From Candidatus Competibacteraceae bacterium (lineage in GTDB: Bacteria > Pseudomonadota > Gammaproteobacteria > Competibacterales > JAHEDQ01), in the NCBI GenBank assembly GCA_024641125.1, contig JAHEDQ010000006.1:1-50025 (forward strand): DNA of 50,025 nt, read 5' to 3'. The translations under genes and the position numbers were made by a program. Positions 30,123-33,332 of the stretch are shown one piece after another; the first letter of the stretch is position 1, and the number at the start of each line of letters is the position of its first letter. The notes below the pieces were generated by a model. That model made no database searches, was not told where the DNA came from, and saw nothing but the letters and a program-made list of their open reading frames with translations.

Positions 30123-33100
30123 ATGAGAACAAGAACGATCGCAGCACTTCTGGTACTGGTGTCTCTGGCGCTGGGACCATTCGCAGCCTACTACGTGCCG
30201 CAAACGCTGGACCAGTTGCGCGAGTCTTTGGGTGCGCAGGCGGCATCGCGCGCGCAGAGTACCGCCAATGCAGTGGAAAAACGACTGACCTGGTCCGAGG
30301 CCACGGTGGCGCTGCTTGCCGACACAATAGATTTGCCGGAACAGTCTCTCCGAAATCCCGAACCGCAAGCGATCCTGGCGGAACGGCTGGGAAAACTCGC
30401 CTCTGCGGTGGCCCCGAAGCGCCAGGAAATCCAAAATCTCACCATCATCGCCCCCGAGGGGACCGCTCTTTTGCGCTTGAGCCAGCGCGCCGGTGACGGT
30501 CGTCTGGTGTTCGCGCGGAGCGAGGCCGGTGCGATCCAGGGCGCTGACGGCCTGTTCGAGCTGGCCCGAAAGGGCCTGGGTTTCAGCCTTGGTACCGAAA
30601 CGGGGAACGGCGAGCCTAAAGAGCTGTTCATGGTCGCGCCCATGGGGGGCAGCCCGGGCAGTCCAAGAGTCGCTTTGCTGGCCAGCATCAATGTGGACCG
30701 ACTCACAGGTGGGCTTTCGGACAGCTACTGGATCGACGCGTCCGGCACGTACCTGCGGCGTCCTGTGTCTTCAGCCAAAACCGGGACAAACGCATTCACG
30801 GATTTTCCCGGCCTGGAGAACCAACTCAAGATCGGTTCCCGGGCCTGGTGGGGCGACACCACCGCGGTGGGTTGGAGTCGCATGGAAGTGGGCAGCAATG
30901 GGCGCCTGTATACCTGGCTAGGCGAGGTGACCGATCTCGGCCCACTACTCGGTTGGCACAGACAGTCATGGATGCTGATTGGGGGTGCACTAATGGCTGC
31001 GCTTGCCGTGGCGCTGCTGCTAAGCGCCTGGCTTTCTGGACAACTGAAGGCGTTCGGGCAACGGGTCACCGACGGCATGCAACAGTTGCTCAACGGCAGT
31101 GAGCGGGCCCCGTTCGAACCGGTGGGCAGCAAAGAAATGCGCGCGTTCACCGAAGCCCTCAATGGGTTGGCGGAAACCTTCGTCGAATCCCAGACCAACC
31201 GTGCGCTTGCTGCCAGAAAACTGTCTGATGATCACCGAGAGCTCCAACGAGAACTGGATCGGGCGCGGTCCGATCAAGCGCATAGCCGAAGCTTGCTGGA
31301 ATCGCTGGCGCGGCCCGCCTACGCGGTCGACAAAGACGGTCAATGCACCTACTGCAATCCGGCCTGCCTGGGACTGCTCGGTCTGGACAGTGCTGAGCGA
31401 CTGCGCGGCGAGAACATCCAGGACATGATGCTTCGGCGTGCGGTTGCAAACGCGGAGCAACCCAGAGCAGCGGACGGTGTTGCGGCCGCCATTCGGGAGT
31501 GCAAGCCTCAACACGTGGAGAGCGAGGTGATCTGGGGTCAGGACGGCAAAAGACGCTTGGTGGAGTACTGGGCCAGCCCACTCACAGAAGGTGATCAGGT
31601 AACAGGCGCGGTGGTGACCCTGGAGGACATAACCGAACGACAGGACAAGACCGAAGAAATGCAGCGGATGCGCGCGCGCGCGGAGCGCACGCTTGAATCC
31701 ATTGCCGATGGGGTTCTGACAATGGATCCGCAGGGTGTGGTGGACTACCTCAATCCGGCTGGGCAGGCGATTTTGGGCTGGACGGCTGAAGAGGCGCATG
31801 GAAAACCGTTCAATGCGATTTTCCAGGCCGCCGAGCAAAACGGTATAGCAGTCGGTCCGGATGCCCTGGAAACCGGCCTGGAAGACGGACCGGTCGCCCA
31901 GGAACTGATGATTCAGACGCGCCACGGTGAACCGGTTTACCTGGAATGCAGCACCGCACCCGTCATCGGTACCGGTCTACCGCCCGGCGGCGCCATTGTG
32001 GTGTTCCGAGACGTCACCGGAGCGCCGCGCATGGCGCATAGTGCACAGTATGTGGCCAAGCACGACCTCACCACCGGCCTCATCAACCGCCAGGAGTTCG
32101 AGAACCGCCTGAGCCAGGCATTGGCCAATGAGCACACCCGCCAGAGTTCGATTTGCTATCTGGACCTGGATCGCTTTCGGACCATCAATGACGACTGCGG
32201 CAGCGTGGCGGGTGACGCGCTGTTGCGGCAGCTGGCGTCCCTGCTGCGCGCCAATGTGCGGCAGCGAGACCTGGTGGGCCGTCTTGGCGATGATGAGTTC
32301 GGCATCCTGTTGGAACACTGTCCGCCGGACCAGGCACTGAGAATTGCCAGCCTGGTGAGGCAAGCTGTCGAGGATTTCAGCTTCAGTTGGGACGACAAAG
32401 CCTACTCGATCACCGCCAGCATTGGCGTAGTAGAGATCGGAGCGAACGCCCGCGATGCCCGTGATGTCATCGGCAGCGCCGAGGGCGCGTGTTTCGCGGC
32501 CAAAGAACAAGGCAGAAATCGGGTCCGGGCCTTTCATGCTGATGACCATGAACTGACCCGATACGGCCCGACGCACTGGGTTACGCGTCTCAATCAGGCT
32601 CTCGAAGACAACGGCTTTCGACTGTTCTATCAAGCCGTCGTGCCGCTGAGTCGGGCGCCGGGCGCGCAGCGGGACCGCCACTATGAGCTTCTGCTTCGCA
32701 TGAAAGACCCGACCGGCAATCTGGCCAATGCCGCCACCTTCCTGCCCTTCGCAGAACGCTACAACATGATCCAGTTGATGGATCGATGGGTGGTACGTGC
32801 GGCCTTCGAATGGCTATCGACGCGGCCCAAGGACGCAGGCGATGTGTTGATCGAGGTCAAGGTGTCCGAAGCGTCGGTAGCCGACGCCGACTTCGCCGAC
32901 TATGTGCAGATTCAGCTGGAAAAGCTGCACATACCGCCACGGTGGATTTGCTTTCAGATTGGGGCTGGCGCGGTGGTGTCCCGGCCAGCCAATGCTACCC
33001 AACTGGTTCGATCTCTGCGCGGCTTCGGTTTCAAGATTTCCCTTGACGATCTAGGTGGGCGCCTGCTCTCCGTAGTCCAAATCCGAAATCTCGAAGTGGA

Positions 33101-33332
33101 TTTTCTGCGCATTGACGCCACCCACACCGGCCGGGTGGTGGAAGACGAACTGGACCGGACACTGGTCAAGGCCATGACCGAAATCGCGCGCATCAGCAAC
33201 CGCCGAACCATCGCCAAAATGGTTGAACAGGATGAAGCCCTGACCGTGCTTAGAGATCTGGGCGTCGACTGCGCCCAAGGATTTGCGATCTCTAAACCAA
33301 GGCCGCTTGAGTTCCTCAAAAAGGACGGTTAG
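30123..33332 (+). CDS. membrane PAS-PAS-GGDEF-EAL protein with degenerate EAL domain
   Basis: About 1069 residues. A membrane helix at 5-27, a periplasmic sensor of about 250 residues (Cache-like by position), a second helix near 282-303 and a HAMP-like stretch are followed by two PAS domains (about 387-506 and 520-640). The GGDEF domain starts at HDLTTGLINR; its motif reads GDDEF near 722, with an RQRD inhibitory site five residues before. The EAL domain begins YELLLR near 854. It keeps the LDD pair and the AQG glutamine but lacks the INLS asparagine (EVKVSE), the EITE glutamate (CFQIG) and the KID lysine (LRIDA), so phosphodiesterase activity is doubtful. The frame is open upstream to 29619, antisense to the amidase gene; ATG 30123 starts the membrane helix. 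Likely a c-di-GMP-responsive regulator. Confidence 0.88.
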   Translation: MRTRTIAALLVLVSLALGPFAAYYVPQTLDQLRESLGAQAASRAQSTANAVEKRLTWSEATVALLADTIDLPEQSLRNPEPQAILAERLGKLASAVAPKRQEIQNLTIIAPEGTALLRLSQRAGDGRLVFARSEAGAIQGADGLFELARKGLGFSLGTETGNGEPKELFMVAPMGGSPGSPRVALLASINVDRLTGGLSDSYWIDASGTYLRRPVSSAKTGTNAFTDFPGLENQLKIGSRAWWGDTTAVGWSRMEVGSNGRLYTWLGEVTDLGPLLGWHRQSWMLIGGALMAALAVALLLSAWLSGQLKAFGQRVTDGMQQLLNGSERAPFEPVGSKEMRAFTEALNGLAETFVESQTNRALAARKLSDDHRELQRELDRARSDQAHSRSLLESLARPAYAVDKDGQCTYCNPACLGLLGLDSAERLRGENIQDMMLRRAVANAEQPRAADGVAAAIRECKPQHVESEVIWGQDGKRRLVEYWASPLTEGDQVTGAVVTLEDITERQDKTEEMQRMRARAERTLESIADGVLTMDPQGVVDYLNPAGQAILGWTAEEAHGKPFNAIFQAAEQNGIAVGPDALETGLEDGPVAQELMIQTRHGEPVYLECSTAPVIGTGLPPGGAIVVFRDVTGAPRMAHSAQYVAKHDLTTGLINRQEFENRLSQALANEHTRQSSICYLDLDRFRTINDDCGSVAGDALLRQLASLLRANVRQRDLVGRLGDDEFGILLEHCPPDQALRIASLVRQAVEDFSFSWDDKAYSITASIGVVEIGANARDARDVIGSAEGACFAAKEQGRNRVRAFHADDHELTRYGPTHWVTRLNQALEDNGFRLFYQAVVPLSRAPGAQRDRHYELLLRMKDPTGNLANAATFLPFAERYNMIQLMDRWVVRAAFEWLSTRPKDAGDVLIEVKVSEASVADADFADYVQIQLEKLHIPPRWICFQIGAGAVVSRPANATQLVRSLRGFGFKISLDDLGGRLLSVVQIRNLEVDFLRIDATHTGRVVEDELDRTLVKAMTEIARISNRRTIAKMVEQDEALTVLRDLGVDCAQGFAISKPRPLEFLKKDG

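Follow-up and report, generated by a model that had tools for sequence, protein, structure and literature searches.

A degenerate GGDEF-EAL protein of RbdA-type descent in a Candidatus Competibacteraceae bacterium, a possible nucleotide-sensing regulator

What can a membrane-bound GGDEF-EAL protein still do with c-di-GMP when metal-binding and catalytic residues of its EAL domain have been replaced? This question is raised by an open reading frame, referred to here as P0001, in a stretch of 50,025 nucleotides from a Candidatus Competibacteraceae bacterium (contig JAHEDQ010000006.1; the whole stretch is called the window below). The preliminary description had proposed a membrane PAS-PAS-GGDEF-EAL protein at 30123-33332, and the reading frame, strand and coordinates proved to be right, with Pfam returning two PAS domains, a GGDEF domain and an EAL domain. 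The features of the gene are as follows.

30123..33332, plus strand: P0001 reading frame, 1069 residues, TM - periplasmic sensor - TM - PAS - PAS - GGDEF - EAL
30138..30206, plus strand: first membrane helix, about residues 6-28 (assigned by eye; helix in a low-confidence model; aligned with the start of histidine-kinase relatives)
30213..30962, plus strand: putative periplasmic sensor with weak dCache similarity, about residues 31-280 (dCache_1 below cut-off; also carried by hybrid histidine kinases)
30969..31037, plus strand: second membrane helix, about residues 283-305 (assigned by eye; model helix 279-323)
31296..31643, plus strand: PAS 1, residues 392-507 (Pfam)
31683..32015, plus strand: PAS 2, residues 521-631 (Pfam)
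32055..32522, plus strand: GGDEF domain with altered A-site, residues 645-800 (Pfam, E 2e-38)
32259..32270, plus strand: intact I-site RQRD, residues 713-716 (sequence alignment)
32286..32300, plus strand: GDDEF in place of GGDEF, residues 722-726 (sequence alignment)
32586..33299, plus strand: degenerate EAL domain, residues 822-1059 (Pfam, E 1e-50)
32685..32687, plus strand: E855 of the EAL motif, which reads ELL, kept (alignment)
32859..32861, plus strand: M1 metal ligand Asn replaced by K913 (alignment)
32955..32957, plus strand: M1 metal ligand Glu replaced by Q945 (alignment)
33108..33110, plus strand: catalytic Lys replaced by R996 (alignment)
33216..33218, plus strand: base Glu replaced by K1032 (alignment)

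The ATG at 30123 is supported as the start codon, since the histidine-kinase relatives of the sensor begin there with a similar TM-like stretch. The reading frame is intact and full-length with normal coding statistics, and its GC3 (0.75 in the GGDEF and 0.69 in the EAL region) resembles that of the neighbouring genes (0.70-0.75). P0001 stands alone: its flanking genes, for an amidase upstream and a DUF302 protein downstream, lie on the opposite strand, and no partner gene was found at the locus. The genome (4.76 Mb in 357 contigs, 94% complete) contains 22 EAL matches.

The EAL pocket was aligned with those of RbdA, Xanthomonas campestris FimX, LapD and the paralogues of P0001. The alignment bore out the proposal that the metal-binding Asn and Glu and the catalytic Lys are absent (replaced by K913, Q945 and R996), and revealed a further change which the preliminary description had missed, namely the replacement of the base Glu by K1032; E855, D975, D976, D998, E1035 and Q1052 are kept. 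Among 38 related EAL domains, taken at 30% identity or more to P0001 with duplicates removed, the metal Asn, metal Glu and catalytic Lys are each found in 38/38 and the base Glu in 36/38. The names catalytic Lys and base Glu for the positions of R996 and K1032 follow the RocR and BlrP1 literature, by which the Glu lost in P0001 would also correspond to the third M1 position of a solved EAL domain. In that solved domain the ligands of the M1 metal are Glu, Asn, Asp and Asp, and two further Asp bind the M2 metal (PMC5301497); the catalytic Lys is also named in PMC3989770. Two of the four M1 metal-ligand positions are replaced in P0001. Loop 6 and the compound helix, which according to PMC3989770 couple EAL dimerisation to activity, carry the changes F977L, G980R, S982L, F984V, Y986Q and P991E, and the position of P870, a Pro in 38/38 family members, is Ala in P0001 as it is in LapD.

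This extent of substitution exceeds chance. P0001 breaks 19 of the 50 EAL columns that are at least 95% conserved in a leave-one-out count, the next worst rows break 5/47 and 5/46, and no other row among the 39 breaks more than five. The sets used for conservation, tree and constraint left out the duplicates L005, L053, L054, L056 and L057, and rows below 30% (EAL) or 40% (GGDEF) identity to P0001. Since the changes affect two M1 ligands out of four, as well as the catalytic Lys, the base Glu and residues of loop 6 and the compound helix, the EAL domain is almost surely not a phosphodiesterase. A six-term search of open-licence PMC papers gave no description of a degenerate EAL domain with lysine in place of metal.

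In the GGDEF domain, the GDDEF motif and the intact RQRD at 713-716 were both as first described, and D681, N689, D698, D724, E725, K794, R798, R713 and D716 are kept; residue roles in the metal, guanine and phosphate sites follow PleD. Four more near-invariant residues are altered (K686R, H694S, D787E and Y791F), so that the signature of an active diguanylate cyclase, GG(D/E)EF with the conserved Lys, His, Asp and Tyr, is absent. P0001 breaks 7/53 conserved GGDEF columns, other rows at most 5/53. Second-Gly variants are described in PMC4823724, where GADEF and GSDEM count as degenerate and GEDEF has no diguanylate cyclase activity. An acidic residue at this Gly has its precedent in CC3396, whose GEDEF domain binds GTP but does not produce c-di-GMP. 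In the excerpts of papers in which the word 'GDDEF' was met it stands for GGDEF, and these carry no evidence on a GDDEF variant. The preliminary description had suggested that P0001 may neither make nor break c-di-GMP. Of this, the absence of breakdown is well supported by the changes listed above, while the absence of synthesis is likely on the sequence but a weaker claim, D681, D724, E725, K794 and R798 being kept; weak cyclase activity stays conceivable, as the metal ligands of the GGDEF domain are intact.

By both sequence and fold, the best solved match to P0001 is the PAS-GGDEF-EAL protein RbdA of Pseudomonas aeruginosa (PA0861; 5xgb, 5xgd, 5xge and 8pps), with 410 bits against 5xgb over residues 507-1062 and Foldseek rank 1. 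The two share the layout TM-periplasm-TM-PAS-GGDEF-EAL, although RbdA has one PAS domain where P0001 has two, and the modelled periplasmic domain of RbdA is all-helical whereas the poor model of the P0001 sensor has strands. RbdA, unlike P0001, has intact GGDEF and EAL domains and is described as mainly a phosphodiesterase (PMC10874727, PMC11372557). Sequence, fold and grouping with the paralogues L006 and L007 thus place P0001 in the RbdA-type family by descent, but the intact EAL catalytic residues of that type are missing from it (Asn, Glu, Lys and base Glu replaced).

In a maximum-likelihood tree of 38 rows including P0001, in which long branches are present, P0001 and the paralogue L006 from its own genome formed a pair (support 100/94), and L007 came next. 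L006 is 50% identical to P0001 over PAS-GGDEF-EAL, and the EAL and GGDEF motifs of L006 and L007 are complete. The branch of P0001 (1.11) is six times longer than that of L006 (0.18). Relative-rate tests with L007 as outgroup counted 76 unique changes in P0001 against 13 in L006 for the EAL domain, 28 against 8 for GGDEF and 26 against 6 for PAS2, with no acceleration in PAS1 (16 against 17). When L008 or L022 served as outgroup instead, the excess was still significant for EAL and GGDEF, not for PAS2. Constraint was then assessed on columns identical in L006 and L007. On the P0001 branch the conserved EAL columns had changed at nearly the frequency of the others (19/50 versus 56/116, p 0.24), so family-type constraint on this domain is nearly gone. 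Family-conserved GGDEF columns changed less than others (7/48 versus 23/58, p 0.005), which indicates that the GGDEF domain is still under selection of the family type. The relaxation of the EAL domain is compatible both with its complete functional loss and with a new role.

No orthologue of P0001 was found in the genomes searched. The 39 other genomes of the same order gave no match better than E 1e-130, and in a class sample of 369 genomes the 368 others gave none better than 1e-150; a 398-genome phylum sample added only three RbdA-type proteins, all more distant. In the class and phylum samples the best two to three candidates per genome were scored. As far as the pattern scan could read the motifs of these three proteins, they are canonical. 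A contig scan for relatives gave four, at 33-35% identity. P0001 would be a duplicate of an RbdA-type gene with intact motifs, L006 being the surviving sister in the genome.

Whether the EAL domain could still bind c-di-GMP was considered from the 15 ligand contacts of Xanthomonas citri FimX listed in a review (PMC7288161), which were mapped onto the letters of X. campestris FimX; all named residues fitted. Six contacts are identical in FimX, LapD, RbdA, L006 and L007, and P0001 keeps five of them (Q837, R859, D887, Q1052 and G1053). At the sixth, Glu653 of FimX, which is kept in both FimX and LapD, P0001 has K1032, reversing the charge. K913 aligns with the ligand-contacting R534 of FimX, and the Gln of Q945 is found in X. 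campestris FimX too. In phmmer searches the P0001 EAL domain scored, after RbdA, LapD (83.1) and X. campestris FimX (83.0) above the enzymes MorA (73.5) and MucR (72.4), whereas for L006 MorA (114.6) and MucR (112.6) came before LapD (107.7) and X. campestris FimX (92.7), with P. aeruginosa FimX (126) above MorA and MucR. These ranks hint at a shift of the EAL domain towards receptor-like sequence, though they may reflect no more than shared losses. AlphaFold2 was applied to PAS2-GGDEF-EAL (5 sequences; mean pLDDT 73, pTM 0.49), and the domain arrangement is unreliable, the full module differing from RbdA by an rmsd of 13 A. The ligand-free EAL barrel of the model superposed on the dimeric RbdA EAL domain 8pps with TMt 0.90 and 2.3 A, and on c-di-GMP-bound FimX 3hv8 with TMt 0.90 and 1.8 A. 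Sensing of c-di-GMP by P0001 is possible in that the I-site is intact, five of the six common EAL contacts are kept and K913 lies at the place of FimX R534. Against it stand the reversal of the FimX/LapD contact by K1032, the Ala at the position of P870 and the near loss of family constraint on the EAL domain.

Tandem GGDEF-EAL proteins in which both domains are inactive are standard c-di-GMP receptors in the accounts given in PMC3032553, PMC4823724 and PMC10874727, and P0001 would be no surprise in kind within this recognised class. FimX of Pseudomonas and Xanthomonas, and Filp, have dead GGDEF and EAL domains as does P0001, which likewise combines a degenerate GGDEF domain with an EAL domain lacking metal ligands. 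X. campestris FimX resembles P0001 in that a basic residue replaces the Asn and Gln replaces the metal Glu. It differs at the Glu of the EAL motif and the DD pair, which are missing, and at the Lys and base Glu, which are kept, the reverse of P0001. Xanthomonas FimX is described as working with PilZ-PilB (PMC7288161). A FimX-PilZ pairing was considered for P0001 and set aside: no PilZ gene lies beside it, and the four PilZ genes of the genome are on contigs other than that of the window, one of them adjacent to a different GGDEF-EAL paralogue whose EAL domain is degenerate. LapD of P. fluorescens (3pjt) resembles P0001 as a membrane protein with a periplasmic domain and degenerate GGDEF-EAL. 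Its described features, however, are RGGEF, KVL, no DD, and Asn, Glu, Lys and base Glu kept, in a HAMP-GGDEF-EAL layout with no PAS (PMC3032553), whereas P0001 has two PAS domains and is without the KVL signature. The suggestion that P0001 is LapD-like did not hold as a matter of membership: the LapD model NF045673 gave 150 bits against a cut-off of 1020, KVL is absent, and LapG (peptidase C93, PF06035) had no match in the 94% complete genome, one of 14 controls being matched. LapD-like inside-out signalling with LapG was rejected on the same grounds. CC3396 of Caulobacter also has an acidic residue for the second Gly (GEDEF, compared with GDDEF in P0001), but its EAL domain is active and switched on by GTP (PMC4823724), while that of P0001 is dead by sequence. 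XOC_2102 and XOC_4190 of Xanthomonas oryzae have degenerate GGDEF and EAL domains like P0001, with different motifs; PMC4823724 reports that neither is active and that they bind c-di-GMP, at 2.9 and 4.6 uM. The pattern of P0001, with the EAL Glu and DD kept and the Asn, Glu, Lys and base lost, is thus unlike that of LapD or FimX.

The periplasmic region gave a dCache_1 match at residues 31-200 (E 7e-4, 19.6 bits), under the Pfam cut-off of 45. Residues 1-320 matched 22 other genomes of the 369-genome class sample at E<=1e-3, mostly over residues 170-319, and the 39 other same-order genomes gave only three weak partial matches (E<=0.01). All eight relatives examined of the 22 carry HisKA and HATPase domains; a receiver domain is also present in five of the eight, below the cut-off in one case. 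The structural model of the sensor (pLDDT 44) is of poor quality and shows strands. The alignments with the sisters exclude the sensor (that of L006 begins at 310 and that of L007 at 285), so it was joined to, or kept on, the P0001 copy only. Periplasmic sensing is a plausible input of the protein. The hybrid histidine kinases L068-L075, from several families of the class, carry a periplasmic sensor of the P0001 type. Certain Trp and Gly residues in it are invariant and it matches no Pfam model, which suggests that it may be a family without a good model. A guess at the input from a polyamine-binding-like neighbour gene, made from reading the sequence, was dropped, as such a gene was found at only one of eight histidine-kinase loci.

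The most likely role of P0001 would then be regulation, with nucleotide binding by the GGDEF and possibly the EAL domain joined to periplasmic and PAS input. To the reading of P0001 as a catalytically dead RbdA-type paralogue acting as a nucleotide-sensing regulator we assign an even balance of probability. On this reading the EAL domain would, by strong indications, be unable to assemble a two-metal centre or hydrolyse c-di-GMP. The GGDEF domain would probably no longer make c-di-GMP but bind nucleotide, either GTP in the altered A-site or c-di-GMP at the RQRD I-site, or both. More speculatively, the EAL domain might hold c-di-GMP metal-free, with K913, R996 and K1032 giving positive charge at the metal places. 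The periplasmic or PAS signal, together with the nucleotide state, would change the conformation or the partner contacts of P0001, perhaps with an active paralogue. P0001 is accordingly placed as an inactive RbdA-type member by descent, which would perhaps work like a FimX-type receptor. An inactive P0001 and an intact sister L006 in one genome make the change from enzyme to receptor open to biochemistry.

Other readings have to be weighed against the nucleotide-sensing regulator. P0001 could be a pseudo-enzyme scaffold whose EAL domain binds no c-di-GMP and serves only in structure or interaction, if it is not in decay, the sensor and PAS signal passing through protein contacts such as mixed dimers with L006 or L007. 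The near loss of EAL constraint, the 76 unique changes against 13 in L006, K1032 at a contact common to receptors, the altered dimer and compound-helix residues and the lack of an orthologue in the genomes searched all speak for it, but five of the six common ligand contacts and E855, D975 and D976 are kept and the reading frame is full-length with normal coding statistics, and we regard it as somewhat unlikely, yet as deserving serious attention. Decay of the whole gene, in which function is being lost with no stop yet, would account for the long branch, the relaxed EAL domain and the absence from the genomes searched; it is very unlikely given that PAS1 is not accelerated, the GGDEF domain is still constrained and the frame is intact.

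Two readings would leave P0001 an enzyme. That it is a diguanylate cyclase, subject to feedback at the I-site and carrying a dead EAL domain, and makes c-di-GMP through GDDEF under control of the sensor, agrees with the retained metal, guanine and phosphate residues, the I-site and the constrained GGDEF columns. Five near-invariant residues including the second Gly of the motif are changed, however, and the second-Gly variants described in PMC4823724 are degenerate (GADEF, GSDEM) or inactive (GEDEF), which makes this reading unlikely. Phosphodiesterase activity through some unusual metal binding, for which the retention of E855, D975, D976 and D998 could be cited, is scarcely credible when the Asn and Glu changes to Lys bring positive charge into the metal centre and the catalytic Lys, base Glu and loop 6 are altered too. 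A bolder form of receptor, which we consider distinctly unlikely, would be a recently evolved metal-free one in which K913, K1032 and R996 replace the two metals, c-di-GMP is held uncleaved and a signal is read out from the periplasmic domain that hybrid histidine kinases also carry; if true, the pair P0001/L006 would show the passage from phosphodiesterase to receptor step by step.

Altered motifs were also seen in other GGDEF-EAL proteins. L041 of the same genome (C109, 2007-4475) has an intact GGDEF domain and a strongly degenerate EAL domain in which Asn, Glu, Lys, base Glu and Gln are replaced, and a PilZ-domain match lies about 190 bases downstream of it (C109:4664-4915); the two are possibly a FimX-PilZ-like pair. 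L049, L050, L051, L052 and L055, also of this genome, have altered GGDEF and/or EAL motifs, the aligned residues being less sure at their 20-29% identity to P0001. Many same-order relatives (L015, L023, L026, L033, L035 and L036; L016, L017, L019-L021, L025, L030, L032 and L034) have Lys or His for the last Glu of AExVE with the other tabulated EAL residues intact.
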